A stretch of DNA of 64,000 bases from Solirubrobacteraceae bacterium (GTDB lineage: Bacteria; Actinomycetota; Thermoleophilia; Solirubrobacterales; Solirubrobacteraceae). The stretch covers positions 1 through 64,000 of the forward strand of contig JAUYGN010000011.1 in assembly GCA_030690545.1 (NCBI GenBank), in the 5' to 3' direction. This document shows, in pieces, positions 4,251 through 50,197 of this stretch. The notes under the pieces are model-generated. The model did not search any database. It had not been told where the DNA came from and was given only the letters and a program-made list of their open reading frames with translations. The first letter of the stretch is position 1. Every line of letters starts with the position of its first letter. Position numbers and translations under genes: made by a program.

Positions 4251-5276
4251 TCACCCGCTGCCGACGAACGAGCGCTCGGCGAGCGCCGCGAGGCACTGCA
4301 GCGGCACCCGCTTCCACTGCTCGTCGACGTCGGTCGGGTCGAGCGCGCGCAGCAGCCGGTCCCAGGTCAGCGCGCGGGTGATCTTGGCCGCGCGGCAGGC
4401 CAGCTCGAGCGTCGCGACGAGCTCGGCGTGCGGCGCGCGGTCGGCGTACGCCTCGAGGTAGGCGTCGCGCAGCGTCACGAGGCGCGGATCGCCGGACGCG
4501 CAGGACAGCGTGGACTGCATGAACACGAGCGGCTCGAGCATGCTCGCGAACGGATGCGCGACGACGCAGTCGCCCCAGTCGTAGAAGCGCACGTCCTCCC
4601 CGGTCGGACCGCCAGCGAGCACGTTCCACGGGTGCAGGTCGTTGTGGTCGACGCTCACGCCGCCCGGCGCGGCGGCGAGCTGCTCGCACCAGGCGGCGAC
4701 CTCGCCGCGCATCCCGGCGGCGCGCCGCAGCGCGCCCCGGTCCTCGTCGCTGCCGTCCGCGGCGACCCGCTCGCCGACGGCCTGCACCGCCTCGTCGAAG
4801 CGCTGGACGAGCACGGTCGGGCGCATGTCCGCGATCCCGAGCTCGAGCATGCGGTCGGCATGCGGCGCGAGCGCGCGCTGCAGCGCGCCGTAGCGGCGCA
4901 GGGCGGTCGCGAACGGAGCGATCAGCTCCTCTCCCTCGAAGCGCTCGGCGAGCGGCTCGCCGCCGTCGGGCAGCAGCATCCAGGCGCGCTCCACGTCGAT
5001 CGCCAGTGGGACGAGCACGCCGGCCGGCGCGACCTCGCCGAGCAGCTCGTAGAACCCGATCTCGAACGCCGTGGCGGGCCCGGCGGCCTTCAGCCAGACC
5101 GTGCCGGCGGACGTCGGCGCCGACAGGACCGTCGCCCACGGGCGCAGATGCGGCTGCCGCACGGCTCCGGTTCGCGCCAGCCCGGCGCCCGCGAGCTGCG
5201 CGTCGATCCAGGCACCAGCCTCCGCGCGCCACGCGGGCGAGGACCAGTGCTCGATGCCGTAGCCGAGCTTCGCCAC
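4251..5276 (-). CDS. Aminoglycoside-phosphotransferase-family kinase
   Basis: A 341-residue protein of the APH/choline-kinase fold. The catalytic loop SVDHNDLHPWNVLAG (near residue 212) is the Brenner motif HxDLxxxN, and the following FYDWGD is the metal-binding DxD-type segment. The N-terminal half has a nucleotide-binding lobe with VWLKAAGPATAFEIGFYELL. This fold phosphorylates antibiotics, sugars or small alcohols; no feature points to a drug and I would not call it a resistance gene. The start is GTG at 5276; no strong ribosome binding site was seen. The gene lies immediately downstream of the short UvrA-like remnant. Confidence 0.8.
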   Translation of the reverse strand: MAKLGYGIEHWSSPAWRAEAGAWIDAQLAGAGLARTGAVRQPHLRPWATVLSAPTSAGTVWLKAAGPATAFEIGFYELLGEVAPAGVLVPLAIDVERAWMLLPDGGEPLAERFEGEELIAPFATALRRYGALQRALAPHADRMLELGIADMRPTVLVQRFDEAVQAVGERVAADGSDEDRGALRRAAGMRGEVAAWCEQLAAAPGGVSVDHNDLHPWNVLAGGPTGEDVRFYDWGDCVVAHPFASMLEPLVFMQSTLSCASGDPRLVTLRDAYLEAYADRAPHAELVATLELACRAAKITRALTWDRLLRALDPTDVDEQWKRVPLQCLAALAERSFVGSG

Positions 5277-5278
5277 GC

Positions 5279-5395
5279 CTACATCGCAGCGCCGGCGGCC
5301 ACGACGACTCGCATCGCGAGGAGGCTGTTCTCGCGGGCGCCGCGGATGATGATCGAGCCGTGAATCGCTGCCCCTTCGGTAGCCGGACTGCGCAT
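5279..5395 (-). pseudogene. Short UvrA N-terminus-like remnant
   Basis: A 38-codon frame beginning ATG at 5395 encodes GSIIIRGARENSLLAM in its middle. This closely resembles the opening of excinuclease UvrA proteins (IIIRGAREHNLKN-type), but the expected Walker A region (TGVSGSGKSS) never follows and the frame ends 16 codons later. It may be the relic of a UvrA-like ABC ATPase gene lost by deletion, with the kinase gene now 2 bp downstream. The similarity is short, so chance resemblance remains possible. Confidence 0.38.
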
Positions 5396-5427
5396 GCTGT
5401 CGCATCGGCGGCCTCGCGCGCGTGAGG

Positions 5428-5925
5428 TCATCGGGCGACGGAGGACCTGGCCGACGACCCGGGCAACAGCCGCTTCTCGCCGAAGAACGTCGCGACCGGA
5501 TTGGCGTTGAAGTTCTCGATCGCGCGGTAGCCGGCACGCTCGTACATCCGCTGCGCACGCGGCTGGCGCGGCCCGGTGTCGAGCCGCACGACGGCATAGC
5601 CGAGCTCGCGCGCGCGCCGCTCGAGCTCCTCGAGCAGCGCTCGCGCGACGCCGCGCCCGCGCGCCTCCTGCGTGACGAACATCCGCTTGATCTCGCCGGC
5701 CCCGTCCGGCAGCCGCTTGATCGCGCCGCAGCAGACCGCGACGCCGTCCTCGAGCCCGACGACGAACGCGCCGCCGGGCGCGGCGAGCTCGTCCGGCCCT
5801 GCCTTCGGCATCTGCGGCCCGTCGAGGTCCAGCCCGTCGTACAGCGCGGCGATCTCGTCGCGCATCCCCTGCACGAGCGTGGCGGCGGGCTCCTCGTCGA
5901 CAGCACAACGCTGGAACTCAAGCAT
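5428..5925 (-). CDS. GNAT family N-acetyltransferase
   Basis: A 165-residue protein starting ATG at 5925. The acetyl-CoA pyrophosphate-binding segment is clear: IKRMFVTQEARGRGVARALLEELE (about residues 90-113), which contains the RGxGxA motif. It is followed by LGYAVVRLDTGPRQPRAQRMYERAGYR, the typical fourth strand and helix of GNAT enzymes. The acceptor substrate is unknown. About 30 bp of the far C-terminus (GSSARSSVAR) looks unstructured. It lies between the UvrA-like remnant and the lipoprotein gene, all read leftwards. Confidence 0.85.
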   Translation of the reverse strand: MLEFQRCAVDEEPAATLVQGMRDEIAALYDGLDLDGPQMPKAGPDELAAPGGAFVVGLEDGVAVCCGAIKRLPDGAGEIKRMFVTQEARGRGVARALLEELERRARELGYAVVRLDTGPRQPRAQRMYERAGYRAIENFNANPVATFFGEKRLLPGSSARSSVAR

Positions 5926-6022
5926 CGGTGGGTAGCTTGGCGCACATCGCCGCCGATGCATCTGACCCCTGCGATCTCGCGTACGCCGTCTCGCCGACGC
6001 CGACGGACTCTGCTGGGGCCGG

Positions 6023-6793
6023 CTACGGCCTCGGGCATCGCATGTCATCGACATCGTCGCCTGGGCGGTGGTCCACGCGCCGACCCTGGGGATAGCTGAT
6101 CCATGCATCCTGAGGCGCACAGTCGACGGTGACGACGACCGTGTCGCCCTTGAGCATGAACTCGCTGGCGCTTCGCAGGCGCCACCGGAAGCGGTCACCA
6201 AGAGAGAGTGGATAGGAGGCGACCAGGTCCGCAACACGGACGGCCACGCTGATCGTGGGCCCACGCTCGCGATACCCGTGCGTCACCTCGGCCTCCTCGA
6301 CTGGCGCATTGCCGTCGGGCAACCAAAGCACCACAGAGCCGATGAGCAACACGTTGGATCCCGCGGGCTCGTCAACCGGTGCGAACCGTAGCTCGTAGCT
6401 CTCGCCGGCGTTCCTCGGTGCCGGTGCTGCGCGACGGATCGTCACGCACAGCAAGCCGCTTTGCACTTTCACGGTCACACGGACCAGATCGATCCATGGC
6501 TGCGGAGCGCCGGTAAACGGCGCGATGATCGCTCCAGTGGCCGGTCGGCGCGGCTGCCCTGTCCCGTCCAACGCGCGCTGGAGCACCGTGTCTCCTCGCC
6601 GGTCGGTTGCACCGGTCGCCGCGCCGCCTTGGCAGCGCTCGAGCATCCTGTCGCTGACATCGGTCGTGCTCGGCCCGTCGGAGGAGCGCGTATCACCATC
6701 ACCGCAGCCGGCAACAACGCTCAGGGCAGCCGCTGCGATGATCAACGCGGTCCCGCACTGGCGGCCAAGGCGGCTGCGAGCCAGGCGCCCCAA
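6023..6793 (-). CDS. Putative secreted lipoprotein
   Basis: About 256 residues, with start uncertain; a TTG at 6793 is the best placed, lying 36 bp downstream of the polA stop. It gives a positively charged stretch (ARSRLGRQ), a hydrophobic core (LIIAAAALSVVAG) and a lipobox VAGC, predicting lipid attachment at that cysteine and export by Sec. The mature part has no family I recognise and is rich in beta-type sequence (VRVTVKVQSGLLCVTIRR; FRWRLRSASEFMLKGDTVVVTVDC). No strong ribosome binding site was seen. The gene is GC-poorer than its neighbours and may be a lineage-specific addition. Confidence 0.6.
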   Translation of the reverse strand: MGRLARSRLGRQCGTALIIAAAALSVVAGCGDGDTRSSDGPSTTDVSDRMLERCQGGAATGATDRRGDTVLQRALDGTGQPRRPATGAIIAPFTGAPQPWIDLVRVTVKVQSGLLCVTIRRAAPAPRNAGESYELRFAPVDEPAGSNVLLIGSVVLWLPDGNAPVEEAEVTHGYRERGPTISVAVRVADLVASYPLSLGDRFRWRLRSASEFMLKGDTVVVTVDCAPQDAWISYPQGRRVDHRPGDDVDDMRCPRP

Positions 6794-39765: not shown

Positions 39766-42700
39766 CTAACGAGGCGGCCCGGAGATGGGCGGATCCTTCT
39801 TGAGGTCTCGGGTCGACTGGCCCGGTATCGGAGGCCGTCTTGGTGGATGCGGAATCTGGAAGTAATCATCCGCGAACGTACACGCGACACCCACCACGCA
39901 GGCAGCCTTCTTGCCTGGCACCAAGCGCAGGAGCGGCAATGGCGCGGTGGCTGCCCCAAGGCCTGCGGAGATCCCGATGTCGCCGACGTCGATGTCGTCG
40001 AGGGGGCCACAGCCGCGGAAGAGGTTGCCGGCGACCTGGCTTCCGAAGTCGATCGCCGCGCCGCCAGCCGCTCCCCCTCCGCCAAGGATCAGGGCGGCGA
40101 CCAGGAGCGGCGGGGCCTCGCCGCTCGGGTCGGTGTGCGTGATTGGGTTGTTGTTGGCGTATGCGTACGCCTGCCCGGTCAGCGTCTCCAGCGGATCCCT
40201 TGTGAGGAACTGCCCCGTGCCGGGGTCGTAGTAGCGAGCGCGCAGGTAGACGAGGCCGGTCTCGGCGTCGTGGTATTCGCCGGCGTACCCGAACGGCTGC
40301 TGGAGCGTCCCGGTGCTGTTGGTGGTGTTGCCGTAGGGGTCATACGTGTATGTCGCGACCGGGTCTGCGTTCTGATCGGTGATCAGGCGGACGCTGCCGA
40401 GCTGGTCGTGGCTGTAGTAGACCGGATCGCCGGATGGGTCCAGGCGCTGCATGACCTGGCCGCCGGGGCCGTAGAGGTACGCGGTCGTGTCCGTGCCGGT
40501 CGTCTCGGTCAATAGCAGCGCCAGGCCCTGGCTGGCATCCCACGCAAACGATGTCGTGACCGCATCGACGGTCTTGCTGATCCTCAGGCCGTCGCCGTCG
40601 TAGGCGTACGACGCGTCCAGCGATCCCTCCGTAACGCTCGTCAAGCGATCAGCCTGGTCATACCCGAGTGCCTGCGCCGGCCCCGACGGCGGCGTCACCA
40701 TCGTGCGACTGCCGCTCTGATCGTAGGCGTAGGTCGTGGCGCCCGTCGGTGGTGCTCCGCACGACCCGCCCGGCGTGGGCGCCGTGAAGCACAGCTCGTT
40801 GGCCGTGTTGAATGCCTGGTGGGTGCCTTCCAGCAGGGCCGTGAGGTTCTCGGCCGGGTCGTAGGCGTACGCGTCTGTGTCAACGTCCTGTAGCTGGTTG
40901 AGCTGCGTGTAGCCGTAGTCGTGATCGTCGGCATCCAGAAGGCCGGTCGACGCGACCGATTCCAGCTGCCCCGTGGGGTCGCGGACGTACGCGAACGTTG
41001 CAAGCTCCGTGCTCGTGTCGTCCTCGACGCCGATCCCCGAAAGGCGCCCAGCATGATCGTAGGTGAGGGTGTCGGTCACGCCGTTGGCCAACCCACGGGT
41101 CGTGACGTTGCCGTCGGCGTCATAGCCAAACGTGCTCTCGCGATCAACGGGATCCTTCACGCTCGTCAACCGCCCGGCGTCGTCATAGCCCCGCGTGATC
41201 GTCCCGACGCCGTTGGGGTAGCTGATGCTCGTCAACCGGTCGGCAAGATCGTGGGCGTAGCCGATCGTGCCGGCCGCCGTCGCCGAACTCGTGAGCCGCC
41301 CCAGCGAGTCGTACGCCCACGTCGAGGTGCCGGTCTGGTCGGTCATCGCGACCCGCCGGCCGAGATCGTCGTACGTGATCCCAGTGACGTCCGGCGTACC
41401 CGGATCGGAGTAGTCGATCGCGGTCACCTGACCCGCCACGTCGTGCGAGAGCGACGCGACCCGGCTCTGCGGATCGGTCACCGACGCGCGATTGCCGGCC
41501 AGGTCATAGGAGATCGTCGTCTCGCGACTCAGCGGATCGGTGGTCGTGGTCATCCGGTCCAGCGGATCGTACGCATACGTCCGGTCCGCACCGGCGCCGT
41601 CAGATCGCGTCGTGACGTTGCCATTGTCGTCGTACTCGTACCCGAGCTCGCTGTCGTCCGGACGCTCGACACGCACGAGCTGGTCGGCCGGGTCATACGC
41701 GTACGTCGTCTCGTTGCCGTTGGGATCGGTCTGCTCGACGAGGTTGCGGTTGGCGTCGTACGCCAACAGGGTCTCGCCGCCCTCGGGGTCGGTGACCTTC
41801 GTCACGAGCCCGTCCGGGTCGTGCTCGTAGGTCGTCGTGTAGTCCGCGGGATCGGCCCCGGACGCGTTGCCACGCGCCGACACCATTGACGTCATGCGCC
41901 CCGCGGTGTCGAACACGGACGTCGTCGTGTTGCCGAGCGGATCGGTTGCCGACACGCGGTCGCCCTGCGCGTTGTAGTCGTACGTCCATTCCTTGCCGAG
42001 CGGGTCGGCGATCTTCGTCACGTCACCCGGCTGCCCGTCATAGGACAGGGTCGTGGTGGCGGCGTCGATCGTCGACCCACCGGAGTCCTTCAACGGCCGC
42101 GACGTCGTCAGCAGGTTCCCCGCACCGTCATAGGTCATCGTCGTCGTGTCCCCCGCCGGATCGGTGATCGTCAGCGGCCGGTTGAGCGCGTCGTACGTGG
42201 AGACCGTCTCGCGATCCAGCGCGTCGGTCTCGCTGAGCACGTTGCCCGCCGCGTCATACGTACGGGTCCGCTCGCGGTCCAGCGGATCGGTGACCTTCGT
42301 GACCCCCAGCGTGTCCGGATCGTGCTCGTACGTCCAGGTCGCCTCGTCGGCGCTGCCGGCGCCTCTCGTCAGCGAGACCAGCAACCCGTCCTCGAACTCC
42401 TCGACCTCGACGTTGCCCTCCGGGTCGGTGATCCTCGTCGACCCCGGCACCGTCGTGTAGTCGAACAGCATCTCGCGGCCCAGCGGGTCGGTCTGCGACA
42501 CGACCCGGTCCTCGCCGTCATAGACGTTCGTGAACTCCGGGACGGGGACCGTCGTCGTATCGCCGAAGTGCCCGGGCATCCTCATCGTCAGCACCCGATG
42601 CGAGCCGTCATAGCCGAACGTCGTCGTGCCGCCGTTGACGTCCACGACGTGCGTCAGGTTCCCCGACCCGTCGTACGTGTACGACAGCGTTCGCGCCGGC

Positions 42701-44469
42701 GAGCTCGAATCCGACACCGACGTCACGCGACCACCGGTCAGGGACATCGTGATCGTCCGGCCTGCGGGATCGGTGGCGACGATCGTCGACGCATCCGGAT
42801 AGGACAGCTGCACCTCGTACCCGTTCAGGTCGCGGATCGCGGCCAACCGGCCGGACGGGTCGAAGTCGAAGATCTCATGCTTGCGCCGCGTGAACGTCCA
42901 CGATCCGTCGACGTTCTCGACCAGCTCGACGTGCAGCCTCGGCGGCACGTAGAACCCGCCCGCGCCGTCGGCGTTCAGGGTCACGAGACTGCCGTTCTCC
43001 TCGGTGATCGTCGCGGTCCCCGTCTCGGCGTCGACGTCCAGCGACATCGTCAGACTCGAATCCCACCCGAACCCGAACGGGCCGTCGGCGGCCGCGCGCG
43101 ACGAGTTGTACGTCCGCTCCAGCACGAAGCCCGACCCGCGGCCCGGAATCGACAGGTCCGTGAACGTGTGCCAGAAGTTCCCCGTCGCGCAGTTGACCGG
43201 CTGCCCCTTGCACGGATCGCGGTGATCGGTCGACCGCGAGCCCCCGCCGTTGCGCTCGTCATCTGCCGGATCGTTCGGGATTCCCAACCCGGAGACCGCC
43301 ACCTGCGTCAGCCGCGTCGTCGTCGTCCCGTCGCCCACCTGTCCGGACGAGTTCAGCCCCCACGCCCGGAACCCCGTGTCCGACCTGACCGCCAGCGAAT
43401 GCGACGCCCCGCCCGCGACGGCGACCGCGTTCGCGATCTCGAACACCGCTACGGGCGCATCGCGCTGCGTCGTCGTGCCGTCTCCCAGCTGCCCCGACGA
43501 GTTCGCACCCCAAGCACGAGCCGTGTCGTCACCGGCGATCGCGAGACCGTGGGACTCGCCGGCGGCGACCGCGTTCATCTCCGACAGCCCGGCGATCATT
43601 CCCGGCACCGCCGAGTCGATGCACGTCCCGAAGATGCAGTTGCGGCCCAGCTGGCCGTCCGTGTTGCGACCCCATGTCCAGACCCGGCCGAGGTCGTCGC
43701 GCGCCATCGACCAGTCCCCGGCGGCCGCGACCTCGACGATGTTCGTCAGCCCCGGGATCACATCCGGGGGATCGCCCGTTCCGCTCGCCGGCGAACGGCC
43801 CAGCTGCCCGTTGGTCCCCAGGCCCCAGCTCCACACCGTCCCCGTGCTGCTGAGCGCCAGCGTGTGGTTGGCGCCCTGCGCCACCGCCGTGAACGTGCCC
43901 GTCGCCCCGACCACGGCGACCGGCGCATGACGATCGATCGTCGTGCCGTCGCCGACCTGCTGGAGGAAGTTCTCCCCCCACGCATACAACGCACCGCTCG
44001 CCACCGCCACCGAGTTGCTCGGGCCGGTGGCGATCGCGGACACGCCCGTCAGCCCCGACACCGCGACCGGGCTCGAGCGCTGGATCGTCGTCCCGTCGCC
44101 CAGCTCGCCGTCGTCGTTCGAGCCCCAGGCGCGCAACGTCCGGTCGTGGAGAAGCGCCAGCGAGTGGTTCCCACCGGCGGCAACCGCACGCACCCCGCCC
44201 GTCAGATCGGACACGGCGACCGGGACACTCGACGACGACGACTCGCCGTCGCCCAGCTGGCCGCTTGTCCCAGCGCCCCAAGCCCGCACCGAGCCATCCG
44301 GGATCACGGCGACCGAGTGGGCCGCTCCCGCCGCAACTCGCGCAGCGGCCGGTTCCACGAACGAGGGCGGTCCCATCCCGAGAACCCCCAGCATGACCAG
44401 ACCAAGCACCAACATGCCCGCCCGCGACAGGTGTCCGCGCGAGTGTCGAGGATTCCAAGCAGCAGTCAT
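39766..44469 (-). CDS. Large secreted RCC1-YD repeat (RHS) protein
   Basis: A 1567-residue protein starting ATG at 44469 behind GGAGGAGATT. Residues 1-42 form a signal peptide (MLVLGLVMLGVLG). Residues ~43-400 hold about seven RCC1-type repeats (xRAWGxNxxGQLGDGTTxxRxxPVAV). A linker leads to a DUF6531-like start (CATGNFWHTFTDLSIPGRGSGFVLERTYNS) and about 900 residues of YD repeats (YDxxGxLTxxT), ending in the RHS core box YLRARYYDPGTGQFLTRDPL near residue 1410. The last ~110 residues are a variable tip with a small hydrophobic stretch, VGDIGISAGLGAATA and a Pro-rich end. RHS shells encapsulate C-terminal toxins or act as surface proteins; tip activity is unknown. Confidence 0.92.
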   Translation of the reverse strand: MTAAWNPRHSRGHLSRAGMLVLGLVMLGVLGMGPPSFVEPAAARVAAGAAHSVAVIPDGSVRAWGAGTSGQLGDGESSSSSVPVAVSDLTGGVRAVAAGGNHSLALLHDRTLRAWGSNDDGELGDGTTIQRSSPVAVSGLTGVSAIATGPSNSVAVASGALYAWGENFLQQVGDGTTIDRHAPVAVVGATGTFTAVAQGANHTLALSSTGTVWSWGLGTNGQLGRSPASGTGDPPDVIPGLTNIVEVAAAGDWSMARDDLGRVWTWGRNTDGQLGRNCIFGTCIDSAVPGMIAGLSEMNAVAAGESHGLAIAGDDTARAWGANSSGQLGDGTTTQRDAPVAVFEIANAVAVAGGASHSLAVRSDTGFRAWGLNSSGQVGDGTTTTRLTQVAVSGLGIPNDPADDERNGGGSRSTDHRDPCKGQPVNCATGNFWHTFTDLSIPGRGSGFVLERTYNSSRAAADGPFGFGWDSSLTMSLDVDAETGTATITEENGSLVTLNADGAGGFYVPPRLHVELVENVDGSWTFTRRKHEIFDFDPSGRLAAIRDLNGYEVQLSYPDASTIVATDPAGRTITMSLTGGRVTSVSDSSSPARTLSYTYDGSGNLTHVVDVNGGTTTFGYDGSHRVLTMRMPGHFGDTTTVPVPEFTNVYDGEDRVVSQTDPLGREMLFDYTTVPGSTRITDPEGNVEVEEFEDGLLVSLTRGAGSADEATWTYEHDPDTLGVTKVTDPLDRERTRTYDAAGNVLSETDALDRETVSTYDALNRPLTITDPAGDTTTMTYDGAGNLLTTSRPLKDSGGSTIDAATTTLSYDGQPGDVTKIADPLGKEWTYDYNAQGDRVSATDPLGNTTTSVFDTAGRMTSMVSARGNASGADPADYTTTYEHDPDGLVTKVTDPEGGETLLAYDANRNLVEQTDPNGNETTYAYDPADQLVRVERPDDSELGYEYDDNGNVTTRSDGAGADRTYAYDPLDRMTTTTDPLSRETTISYDLAGNRASVTDPQSRVASLSHDVAGQVTAIDYSDPGTPDVTGITYDDLGRRVAMTDQTGTSTWAYDSLGRLTSSATAAGTIGYAHDLADRLTSISYPNGVGTITRGYDDAGRLTSVKDPVDRESTFGYDADGNVTTRGLANGVTDTLTYDHAGRLSGIGVEDDTSTELATFAYVRDPTGQLESVASTGLLDADDHDYGYTQLNQLQDVDTDAYAYDPAENLTALLEGTHQAFNTANELCFTAPTPGGSCGAPPTGATTYAYDQSGSRTMVTPPSGPAQALGYDQADRLTSVTEGSLDASYAYDGDGLRISKTVDAVTTSFAWDASQGLALLLTETTGTDTTAYLYGPGGQVMQRLDPSGDPVYYSHDQLGSVRLITDQNADPVATYTYDPYGNTTNSTGTLQQPFGYAGEYHDAETGLVYLRARYYDPGTGQFLTRDPLETLTGQAYAYANNNPITHTDPSGEAPPLLVAALILGGGGAAGGAAIDFGSQVAGNLFRGCGPLDDIDVGDIGISAGLGAATAPLPLLRLVPGKKAACVVGVACTFADDYFQIPHPPRRPPIPGQSTRDLKKDPPISGPPR

Positions 44470-46066: not shown

Positions 46067-47233
46067 TCAGGCCGCGAGCCGGCCGAGCCGCTGGACGGCC
46101 TCCAGCAGCCGGTCGTCGGGCGTCGTCAGCGAGATCCTGAAGAAGCCCTCGCCGTTGGGCCCATAGGCGCCGCCCGGCGAGATCACGACGGCGGCCTCCT
46201 CGAGCACGTGCTCGCAGTACGCGGCGGCGTCCTCGAAGCCGGCGGGCACCGGTGCCCAGACGTAGATCGTGCCCTTCGGCGGCGTGACGTCGACGCCGAT
46301 CCTCCGCAGCGCGTCGACGACGAGGTCGCGGCGGCGCAGGTAGAGCGCGTTCATCTCCCTGACGTCGCCGTCGGCGTCCGGGCTGAGCGCGGCGATCGCG
46401 GCGAGCTGGACGGCTTCGAAGTTGCCCGAGTCGATGTTCGTCTTGAGCTTCCAGTACGCCGCGATCGCGTCGGCGTTGCCGACGATCGCCGCGCAGCGCC
46501 AGCCGGTCATGTTGTAGCCCTTCGACCACGAGAACACCTCGACGCCGACGTCCTTCGCGCCCGGCGTGGCGAGGAACGAGGGCGCGCGGTAGCCGTCGTA
46601 CGTCGTCTCGGAGTAGGCGTTGTCGTGCACGGCGAGGACGTCGTTGGCAGCCGCGAAGTCGACGGCCTCCTCGAAGAAGCCGGGGCGCACGACCGCTCCG
46701 GTCGGGTTGTTCGGGTAGTTGAAGAACATGAGCTTCGCGCGCTTGCGGTCGGCCTCGGAGATCGCCGACAGGTCGGGCGTGAAGCCGCGCTCGGGCAGCA
46801 GCGCCATCAGCACCGGGTCGCCGCCGGCGATCAGCGGCCCGCCGGTGTAGACCGGGTAGCCGGGATCGGCGCTGAGCGCCGCGTCGCCTGGATCGAGGAA
46901 CGCCAGGTTGAGGTTGAAGATGCACTCCTTGGCGCCGATCGCCGGCATGATCTCGGTGTCCGGGTCGAGCTCGACGTCGAAGCGGCGCATGTAGAAGTCC
47001 GAGACGGCCTGGCGGAAGTCCTGACGACCGCGGTTGGACGGGTACCGGTGCGTCTCGGGCTCGCTGACGGCCTCCTGCATCGCGTCGACGATGATCGCCG
47101 GCGTCGGCCGGTCCGGATCGCCGATCCCGAGCGAGATGACGTCGATGCCCTGCGCGCGCTTGGCAGCGATCTTGCGCTCGAGCTCGGCGAACAGGTAGGG
47201 CGGGATCAGGTCGAGGCGCTTGGAGGGCTTCAC
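46067..47233 (-). CDS. dapL: LL-diaminopimelate aminotransferase
   Basis: A 388-residue class I/II PLP aminotransferase converting tetrahydrodipicolinate directly to LL-diaminopimelate. RLDLIPPYLFAELERKIAAKRAQGIDVISLGIGDPDRPTP at the N-terminus is typical of DapL. The PLP lysine is in FSWSKGYNMTGWR; FFNYPNNPTGAVV and HDNAYSETTYDG bind cofactor and substrate. GTG at 47233 overlaps the dapF stop (GTGA at 47230-47233). The pair dapF-dapL is a lysine/peptidoglycan cluster that bypasses the acylated DAP routes. Confidence 0.92.
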   Translation of the reverse strand: MKPSKRLDLIPPYLFAELERKIAAKRAQGIDVISLGIGDPDRPTPAIIVDAMQEAVSEPETHRYPSNRGRQDFRQAVSDFYMRRFDVELDPDTEIMPAIGAKECIFNLNLAFLDPGDAALSADPGYPVYTGGPLIAGGDPVLMALLPERGFTPDLSAISEADRKRAKLMFFNYPNNPTGAVVRPGFFEEAVDFAAANDVLAVHDNAYSETTYDGYRAPSFLATPGAKDVGVEVFSWSKGYNMTGWRCAAIVGNADAIAAYWKLKTNIDSGNFEAVQLAAIAALSPDADGDVREMNALYLRRRDLVVDALRRIGVDVTPPKGTIYVWAPVPAGFEDAAAYCEHVLEEAAVVISPGGAYGPNGEGFFRISLTTPDDRLLEAVQRLGRLAA

Positions 47234-48090
47234 AGGTTCTCCAGTTCGGTGCAGAAGTCGTCGGCGAGCTCGCCACGGTAGACGGGCCTCGCCCATCCGG
47301 TCAGGTCGAAGTGCAGGTCCTCGGCGACGTCGACGACGAGCTCGCCGCCGTCGAGGCGCACGGTCACGGGCGAGTCGCCGCCGCGCAGGACGTAGGCGAT
47401 CGCGGCGCCGCTGGCGCCTGTCCCCGAGGACATCGTCTCCCCCACGCCACGCTCGAAGATCCGCGCGCGGATCACGCCGGGCTCAAGCTCCGCGTACCAG
47501 GAGACGTTCGTGCGGTTCGGGAACAGCTCGTGACGCTCGATCGCCGGGCCGACCCGCGCGAGCTCGAGCGCCTCGAGCTCGTCGAGGTCGGGATGGTGGA
47601 TCGCGCATTGCGGGTTGCCGACCTGGACGTGCTGGAAGCGCCATGTGCGGCCGTCCTGCGTCGTCAGCTGGGCGGCGCCGTCGGCGTCGCCGGACGGGAA
47701 GTCGTCCGACGACGTGCGCGCGCGGCCCATGTCCAGCGTGCACGTGTCGGGGCCGGTGATGTGCGGGCGGATCTCGCCGGCGCCGGTCTGGATCGAGAAG
47801 CGGTCCGTGTCGACCCAGCCGTTGCGGCGCAGGTACATGACGGCCTCGCGCGCGCCGTTGCCCGACAGCCCGGACTCCGAGCCGTCGGGGTTGAAGATCC
47901 TCAGCCGCGCGACGAATCCTGGCCCGTCGGGCTCGGACAGCAGCAGGATCCCGTCCGAGCCGACGCCGGTGTGGACGTCGCAGATGCGCTCGATGCGCTG
48001 CGGCGTGAAATCGAACGCCAGGGCCCGCTGCTCGAAGATGAGGTAGTCGTTGCCGAGCGCCTGCCACTTCTCGAATGCGATCGTCGTCAT
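47230..48090 (-). CDS. dapF: Diaminopimelate epimerase-like protein lacking both catalytic cysteines
   Basis: A 286-residue DapF-fold protein: FEKWQALGNDYLIFEQ, IERICDVHTGVGSDGILLL, RIFNPDGSESGLSGNGAREA, QVGNPQCAIHHPD and ERGVGETMSSGTGASGAA. DapF converts LL- to meso-diaminopimelate through two cysteines acting as base and acid. In the signature NxDGSx4CGNGxR the cysteine is Ser76 (codon TCG, 47863-47865). In the second motif, normally ACGTG, it is Ser222 (TCG, 47425-47427). The rest of the fold seems intact. Either serine works in this lineage, or the protein has another activity. The ATG at 48090 overlaps the miaA stop; an internal TAGACT lies 10 nt upstream. Confidence 0.85.
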   Translation of the reverse strand: MTTIAFEKWQALGNDYLIFEQRALAFDFTPQRIERICDVHTGVGSDGILLLSEPDGPGFVARLRIFNPDGSESGLSGNGAREAVMYLRRNGWVDTDRFSIQTGAGEIRPHITGPDTCTLDMGRARTSSDDFPSGDADGAAQLTTQDGRTWRFQHVQVGNPQCAIHHPDLDELEALELARVGPAIERHELFPNRTNVSWYAELEPGVIRARIFERGVGETMSSGTGASGAAIAYVLRGGDSPVTVRLDGGELVVDVAEDLHFDLTGWARPVYRGELADDFCTELENL

Positions 48091-48989
48091 GCGGGCGCGG
48101 AGTCTATGAGGGCTGCCACGTGCTCTGGCTCCTGGCTGGTCATGTCGATCGCCTCCACGTCGGGCAGCTTGCGCATCCAGGTCAGCTGGCGGCGAGCGTA
48201 GTTGCGGGTGCGCCGCTTCATCGCATCGACGTCGCCGCTGCGCAGCTGCTCGAAGCCGAGCGCGGCGCGAGCGGTGTCCGAGGCGCCGGCGGCGTGCGCC
48301 CGCTGCACCTCGGCGACGACGCCCGCGGCGACCATCGCGTCGACGCGCGCCTCGATCCGCGCGTAGAGCTCCTCGCGGTCGCGGATCAGGCCGACGAGGC
48401 GCGTCGGGTGGCGCGTCTCGCGCGTCCACAGCTGGCTGGGCGTGGTCGCGGGCACGAGCGCGCCCTGGTCGTGCAGCTCGAGCGCGCGCACGATCCGGTG
48501 GCGGTCGCGCGGCTCGATCCGCTCGGCGGCCCACGGTGCCTTGCCGGCGAGCTCGGCGTGCAGCGCCTGCGGCCCGCGCGCGTCGAGCTCGGCCTGCCAG
48601 CGCTCGCGCACGCCCGCGGGCGGCGGTGGGCGCAGCTCCAGCTCGGCGAGCGCGGCGCGCAGGTACAGCCCGGTGCCGCCGACGACGATCGGCGTGGCGC
48701 CCTCGGCCAGCAGTCCGTCGATCTCGGCGTGCGCGAGGGCGGCGTACTCGGCGACCGAGAAGCGCTCGCTCACGGGCAGGAACGCGACGAGCCGGTGCTC
48801 GAGGACCGCGCGCTGCGCCGCGTCGGGAACGCCGGTGAGGATCTCCAGGCCCCGGTAGACCTGCAGCGCGTCGGCCGAGACCGCCACCGGTCGCTCGCCT
48901 CTGGCGCGCAGCCGCTGCGCGAGCGCCAGCGCGACCTCGGTCTTGCCGACGCCGGTGGGGCCGAACATGGCGAGCAGTCGTCGCGTCAC
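48087..48989 (-). CDS. miaA: tRNA dimethylallyltransferase
   Basis: A 300-residue enzyme adding an isopentenyl group to A37 of tRNAs reading UNN codons. The P-loop is GPTGVGKTEVALALA at the N-terminus; SADALQVYRGLEILT, VGGTGLYLRAALAEL, RIEPRDRHRIVRALE and the C-terminal RNYARRQLTWMRKLP are family signatures. The start is GTG at 48989. It begins the overlapping run miaA-dapF-dapL. Its partner miaB lies 11 kb away in this window. Confidence 0.95.
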   Translation of the reverse strand: MTRRLLAMFGPTGVGKTEVALALAQRLRARGERPVAVSADALQVYRGLEILTGVPDAAQRAVLEHRLVAFLPVSERFSVAEYAALAHAEIDGLLAEGATPIVVGGTGLYLRAALAELELRPPPPAGVRERWQAELDARGPQALHAELAGKAPWAAERIEPRDRHRIVRALELHDQGALVPATTPSQLWTRETRHPTRLVGLIRDREELYARIEARVDAMVAAGVVAEVQRAHAAGASDTARAALGFEQLRSGDVDAMKRRTRNYARRQLTWMRKLPDVEAIDMTSQEPEHVAALIDSAPA

Positions 48990-49033
48990 GAGGCGCAGTA
49001 TGGGCGCAGCGCGACGGGTATCGTGCGCTCGCG

Positions 49034-50197
49034 ATGAGCGTGCGCATCGCGTGTGGCCTGTCCACCGCGTCCGATCCACGGACAGGAGCCGTCGAGGCGG
49101 CCGCCAAGGTGGCCGCGGAGCTGCCCGACGCGAGCATCGATCTGGCGGTCGTGTTCGCTTCGGGCGCGCACCTCGCCAGCCCCGAGGCGACGCTCGAAGG
49201 CGTCCACGACGCGCTGGCGCCCGACGTGCTGATCGGCTGCGGCGCCGGTGGCGTCGTCGGCGACGGCCGCGAGATCGAGGGCGGCACCGCGATCGCCGTC
49301 TGGGCAGCCGCCTTCGAGCACGGGGTCGTCTCGACGTTCCACGCCGAGGTGACCGAGGTGCGAGACGGCGTCGCGATCGCCGGGGTGCCCGACCTGCAGG
49401 GCGCCGGCGGCGCGATCCTGCTGCCCGACCCGTACTCCTTTCCGACCGACGCGGTGCTCGCCGAGCTCGCCGGGCGCGCGCCGGGCGTGCCGGTCCTGGG
49501 CGGGGTCTCGAGCGCTCGCACGCTGCGCGGGCAGGCGGCGCTGTTCCTCGGCGAGCGCGTCGTGCCCGGCGGCGCCGTCGGCGTGCGCTTCGACGGCGTC
49601 GAGCTGCTGCCGTGCGTCTCGCAGGGCGCGACGCCGATCGGCCCCGAGCTCGAGATCACCGCCGGCGAGGGCCGGCTGATCAAGGAGCTCGGCGGGCGAC
49701 CGGCGCTGACCGCCCTGCGCGACGTGCTCGATCGCCTCGACGACGACCAGCGCGAGCTGCTCGCCGAGGGCATGCTGCTCGGGATCGTCGTCGAGCACGG
49801 TCTCGGCGACCACCGGCACGGCGACTTCCTCGTGCGCAGCGTGCTCGGCGGCGACCCGGAGACGGGGACGATCGCCGTCGGGGCGACGATCGAGCAGGGC
49901 CAGGTCGTGCGGGTGCACGCGCGCGACGCGGCATCGGCGGATCGCGATCTCGACGAGGCGCTCGGCCTGCGTCGCCGTGCGCTCGGCGACGACGCCCCGG
50001 CGGGCGCGCTGATGTTCACCTGCAACGGCCGCGGACGCGGGATGTTCGGCCTGCCCGACCACGACGCGGCGGCCGTCACGAGCTGCCTGGGCGACATCCC
50101 GACCGCCGGCTTCTTCGCCGCCGGCGAGATCGGACCGGTCGGCGGCGAGAACTTCCTGCACGGATTCACGGCTACCGTCGCGGTCTTCGCCTCATGA
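49034..50197 (+). CDS. FIST-domain sensory protein
   Basis: A 387-residue protein with the FIST N-terminal domain (GLSTASDPRTGAVEAAAKVAAEL; LIGCGAGGVVGDGREIEGG; PVLGGVSSA) and a FIST_C domain (LFTCNGRGRGMFG-type stretch MFTCNGRGRGMFGLPDHDA, then DIPTAGFFAAGEIGPVGGENFLHGFTATVAVF). FIST domains are proposed to bind small ligands such as amino acids and are often coupled to signalling domains; here no output domain is fused. TATCGT (49019-49024) lies 9 nt before the ATG, so the transcript is probably leaderless. Confidence 0.88.
   Translation: MSVRIACGLSTASDPRTGAVEAAAKVAAELPDASIDLAVVFASGAHLASPEATLEGVHDALAPDVLIGCGAGGVVGDGREIEGGTAIAVWAAAFEHGVVSTFHAEVTEVRDGVAIAGVPDLQGAGGAILLPDPYSFPTDAVLAELAGRAPGVPVLGGVSSARTLRGQAALFLGERVVPGGAVGVRFDGVELLPCVSQGATPIGPELEITAGEGRLIKELGGRPALTALRDVLDRLDDDQRELLAEGMLLGIVVEHGLGDHRHGDFLVRSVLGGDPETGTIAVGATIEQGQVVRVHARDAASADRDLDEALGLRRRALGDDAPAGALMFTCNGRGRGMFGLPDHDAAAVTSCLGDIPTAGFFAAGEIGPVGGENFLHGFTATVAVFAS

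Follow-up and report, generated by a model that had tools for sequence, protein, structure and literature searches.

Can a diaminopimelate epimerase do without both of the cysteines on which its mechanism is built? The question is raised by a dapF gene in a 64,000-nucleotide stretch of DNA (hereafter the window; contig JAUYGN010000011.1 of assembly GCA_030690545.1, positions 1 to 64,000) from a Solirubrobacteraceae bacterium (Actinomycetota; Thermoleophilia; Solirubrobacterales), the genome of which is a 3.53-Mb draft that is 98.6% complete. DapF is the textbook two-cysteine enzyme, and its cysteine pair is a target of covalent inhibitors and of oxidative inactivation. A preliminary description, made from the sequence alone, had noted that both catalytic cysteines of the window protein are serines (Ser76 and Ser222), each encoded by TCG, and the open reading frame bears this out. 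We propose that the gene probably encodes the sole LL-diaminopimelate (LL-DAP) epimerase of the cell, in which Ser76 and Ser222 would serve as the general acid/bases.

The protein scores 184.3 bits over residues 5-276 against the NCBIfam DapF equivalog TIGR00652 (cut-off 114.65) and also matches the Pfam family DAP_epimerase (PF01678). Its site-1 region reads NPDGSESGLSGNGAR and its site-2 region reads ERGVGETMSSGTGASGAA. The signature around the first cysteine, N-x-[DN]-[GS]-x5-C-[GI]-N-[GA]-x-R (PMC8225329), is kept except for Ser76, and Ser222 replaces the cysteine of the second motif, (A/S)CGTG. The remaining motifs had been described as intact, which holds for the rest of the signature and for the residues that contact diaminopimelate (DAP), but the GNPH motif is GNPQ, a change that had been missed. 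The contact residues of the Haemophilus influenzae enzyme (Asn11, Asn64, Asn157, Asn190, Glu208, Arg209 and the Gly-Asn and Gly-Thr/Ser just past the catalytic residues) were matched by motif, and N14, N67, G77, N78, N159, N195, E213, R214 and G223 are 100% invariant in all groups of DapF with two serines (hereafter Ser/Ser, as against Cys/Cys). Residue 224 is Thr or Ser across these groups and Thr in the window protein.

An AF2 model of the protein (pLDDT 95.6) has the two-domain DapF fold, and its best matches among known structures have Z scores of 34-37 over ~270 residues, including 9mro (Z 36.6) and 3ejx (Z 35.5), with the O-ureidoserine racemase 7vdy as the top structural match. In the model Ser76 lies at the N-terminus of helix 77-89 and Ser222 at the N-terminus of helix 223-235. 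The helices of DapF likewise start right after the catalytic cysteines, a position believed to reduce the pKa of the thiol (PMC12039745). The engineered DapF mutants C73S and C217S (2q9h, 2q9j; Z 33.5-34 to the model) carry serine at the same places, but these are single laboratory mutants of a cysteine enzyme, whereas both window serines are natural and long conserved. The protein thus shares with canonical DapF (TIGR00652; PF01678; 9mro, 3ejx, 1gqz) its fold, its DAP-contact residues and an operon with DAP genes, and differs in having two serines and GNPQ where DapF has two catalytic cysteines and GNPH. It is a DapF homologue that very likely works as DapF.

The substitution is fixed across the order. 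A DAP_epimerase match was present in 119 of 121 sampled genomes of Solirubrobacterales, nearly all with the two domain matches that one gene should give (three or four in G064, G077 and G120). The DapF proteins read from this order, 65 distinct sequences from independent assemblies, are without exception Ser/Ser, and GNPQ replaces GNPH in every one read; position 161 is His in 56 of 56 Cys/Cys rows compared. The Ser/Ser type was also found in Patulibacter americanus DSM 16676 and in metagenome-assembled genomes (MAGs) labelled Conexibacter, Solirubrobacterales and Thermoleophilaceae. The serine codons of the 65 proteins are TCG (36), TCC (26) and AGC (3) at site 1, and TCG (35), TCC (14), AGC (10), TCA (3), TCT (2) and AGT (1) at site 2. 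Since both TCN and AGY codons are used, serine has been retained across codon families that are unconnected by any single base change. Eight close pairs of dapF gave dN/dS values of 0.18-0.44, and the gene is under overall purifying selection, in keeping with the earlier statement that it is not a decaying pseudogene. The idea of a sequencing or assembly error, or of a gene in decay, had nothing but the rarity of the change in its favor and is refuted: error is ruled out by the agreement of 65 distinct proteins from independent assemblies with several serine codons, and decay by the dN/dS values.

The placement of the gene between an upstream miaA and a downstream dapL was described correctly; the two 4-nt overlaps are ATGA (miaA/dapF) and GTGA (dapF/dapL). 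Across 77 loci of the order, some from the same genome and some cut short, miaA adjoins dapF in 73 and dapL does so in 59. At the Patulibacter americanus locus (L132), the place next to the Ser/Ser dapF that dapL holds in the window is taken by a dapD-like gene for a tetrahydrodipicolinate (THDP) succinyltransferase (5034-6173, minus strand); serine DapF may therefore accompany either route to LL-DAP. The dapL overlap, together with lysA elsewhere in the genome, gives the window dapF a DAP-synthesis context.

The window's genome has one dapF gene, as does every one of 17 other genomes that were checked, among them Nitrospira MAGs and Patulibacter americanus DSM 16676. No second DAP_epimerase-family gene was found in the window's genome; the proline racemase, PhzF and Asp/Glu racemase families were not searched. 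The preliminary description had named a second canonical DapF combined with unconserved serines as grounds for abandoning its claim; the genome has one DapF gene and the serines do not vary within the order. It had also suggested meso-DAP dehydrogenase (Ddh, PF16654) as a source, and no Ddh was found in the window's genome, in the order sample or in the Ser/Ser genomes of other groups. One of 119 class genomes, from another family than the window's, had a Ddh match, and a weak Ddh stretch of 49 residues only was seen in G563. LysA, which acts on meso-DAP and needs it as substrate, is encoded in the window's genome (415.9 bits against a cut-off of 297.9), where it keeps the key motifs HIGSQ, EPGR and CESGD, the pyridoxal phosphate motif among them, and in nearly all other genomes checked (G563 and G387 gave no match). 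It had further been suggested that the wall contains LL-DAP, in which case a dead epimerase would be tolerated. LL-DAP is the direct product of DapL, and LL-DAP walls are known in some Actinobacteria. Even so, this explanation is very improbable, given that LysA needs meso-DAP and that meso-DAP is the diamino acid published for the walls of Solirubrobacterales without exception (PMC3035278), with direct records for Solirubrobacter and Conexibacter (PMC3035278, PMC10722151), including the wall of Solirubrobacter deserti (PMC10722151). With meso-DAP walls, a lone DapF and no Ddh, the only recognisable meso-DAP enzyme in these cells is the Ser/Ser DapF.

Ser/Ser DapF recurs in several phyla, more widely than could be seen from the window. 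A comparison across Thermoleophilia, which had been proposed as a check, found the serines fixed in the order and in families f7 and f11, both of which have GNPH, while f5, f6, f8, f10, f12 and most of f9 are Cys/Cys. Outside the class, Ser/Ser proteins were read from Nitrospira/Nitrospirales MAGs, one Deltaproteobacteria, one Chloroflexi and two Acidobacteria MAGs. The Nitrospirota sample contains both Ser/Ser and Cys/Cys genomes; two of its members (G578 and G588) carry one Ser/Ser DapF plus one Cys/Cys DapF each (L275-L278), the latter of a TGVPH type instead of GNPH, and G600 has two Ser/Ser copies. Natural Ser/Cys DapF was found as four proteins in two lineages: L077, L086 and L087 from genus g58 of f9, in which all members read except one are Ser/Cys, and L125 from family f34, in the same phylum as the window but outside its class. 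No Cys/Ser protein occurred among the DapF proteins read. The Ser/Cys proteins may represent an intermediate through which Cys/Cys passed to Ser/Ser. In the two Acidobacteria MAG loci (L141 and L152), the Ser/Ser DapF has GNPN and SGTCSC, and a PBP4-type carboxypeptidase gene adjoins it in L141. Six peptide patterns searched for viral relatives gave no match, and no description of a natural serine DapF was found in the open-access literature, a scope outside which most subscription journals lie.

A phylogenetic tree of 99 DapF proteins was inferred using IQ-TREE with both catalytic sites and column 161 masked. Five Ser/Ser groups, each with 99-100 bootstrap support, are interleaved with Cys/Cys groups: the order; f11; f7; Nitrospira with Deltaproteobacteria and Chloroflexi; and Acidobacteria. 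A minimum of 7 changes among the Cys/Cys, Ser/Cys and Ser/Ser states is required on this tree. When all Ser/Ser rows are constrained to form one group, the log-likelihood drops by 81 units (approximately unbiased test, p 0.033), in a set that includes some long branches and with groups named after the states were seen; a single Ser/Ser origin is thereby modestly rejected. Because the order and f11 lie on either side of f10, a Cys/Cys family, these two may share one origin, with f10 having reverted.

Several points weigh against catalysis by the two serines. The pKa of a serine hydroxyl is far above that of a thiol. No compensating residue common to all was found in a column-by-column comparison of the five Ser/Ser groups with the 56 Cys/Cys rows: three of the five groups have Ser or Cys in place of Gly225, and two lack His161 (Gln in one, Asn in another), leaving the window's order without this nearby histidine. 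Single Cys-to-Ser mutants of the Dab racemase PddB retain <0.1% activity and those of Mycobacterium tuberculosis DapF similarly little (PMC8225329), and Cys-to-Ala mutants of Corynebacterium glutamicum DapF are almost dead (PMC5296763). No reported activity for any Ser/Ser DapF member was found in the literature. PddB and the O-ureidoserine racemase 7vdy are DapF-fold relatives with other substrates; PddB uses the two cysteines (PMC8225329), unlike the window DapF.

The loss of activity in these mutants lends its weight to the main rival explanation, in which another, unrecognised enzyme makes meso-DAP and the Ser/Ser protein is kept for some other task, such as DAP binding or regulation. The family searches were limited to known epimerases, and the Cys/Cys DapF that accompanies the Ser/Ser one in the two Nitrospirota genomes also speaks for it. 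The same takeover would, however, be required in about five lineages, each of which retained dapF and its DAP-binding residues, with the operon also retained in the window's order; moreover, the searches made in the window's genome returned neither a second family member nor Ddh. We regard this explanation as unlikely.

A natural precedent supports catalysis by serine. The Ser/Cys 4-hydroxyproline 2-epimerase of Agrobacterium vitis is a working two-base epimerase of the same fold superfamily with serine as one acid/base (PMC4113996), although it has one serine only, acts on hydroxyproline and belongs to another family. The Ser/Thr trans-3-hydroxyproline dehydratase resembles the window DapF in lacking cysteine at both positions and in having a catalytic serine (PMC4113996), but it catalyzes a one-sided dehydration without epimerisation and is not a DapF. 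Since cysteine loss accompanies dehydratase activity in the proline racemase superfamily (PMC4113996), a changed reaction or substrate, such as one-sided proton abstraction or dehydration, with meso-DAP coming from elsewhere, was also weighed. This is improbable for a protein that retains all residues binding both ends of DAP, exceeds the DapF equivalog cut-off and has miaA and dapL, or a dapD-like gene, as neighbors.

Under the proposed role as epimerase, DapL would make LL-DAP and the Ser/Ser DapF would convert it to meso-DAP, which would then feed the wall (MurE) and lysine (LysA). Ser76 and Ser222, each at a helix N-terminus as the cysteines are, would carry the 1,1-proton transfer. Such an enzyme would probably be slower than the cysteine form and immune to disulfide or peroxide inactivation. 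In C. glutamicum, peroxide inactivates DapF via a disulfide between the catalytic cysteines (PMC5296763), so an oxidation-proof, slower enzyme is a reasonable hypothetical reason for the exchange. It also seems fairly likely that these proteins represent a thiol-free, cofactor-independent epimerase with an undescribed mechanism, in which the acid/bases of DapF became serines several times, and on which whole orders, including that of Nitrospira, depend for meso-DAP and lysine. If the serines do the same job as the cysteines, the accepted account of how a proton of very high pKa is abstracted would have to be broadened. Inhibitors of DapF directed at thiols would then fail against these bacteria, and annotation rules in which cysteine is mandatory would be in error for whole orders. 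Should the serines instead be inactive, a meso-DAP-forming enzyme would await discovery in several phyla.

Positions of the dapF locus and of the replaced residues in the window
Feature	Position	Strand	Basis
dapF, Ser/Ser diaminopimelate epimerase homologue, 286 aa	47230..48090	-	Open reading frame, family profiles, AF2 model
Ser76 codon TCG, position of catalytic Cys73 (H. influenzae numbering)	47863..47865	-	
Ser222 codon TCG, position of catalytic Cys217 (H. influenzae numbering)	47425..47427	-	
Gln161 codon, GNPQ replacing GNPH	47608..47610	-	
dapL, LL-diaminopimelate aminotransferase	46067..47233	-	NF006756, 530.8 bits (cut-off 507)
miaA, tRNA dimethylallyltransferase, start codon not fixed	48087..49037	-	TIGR00174, 170 bits (above cut-off)

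Nothing was found in a search for an RNA fold around the dapF start codon. Divergent from miaA-dapF-dapL lies a gene for a protein with FIST N and FIST C domains (49034-50197, plus strand). The window also encodes, on the minus strand at 39766-44469, a 1567-aa protein in which N-terminal RCC1 repeats are joined to RHS repeats with DUF6531, and which has a short C-terminal end past the RHS core.
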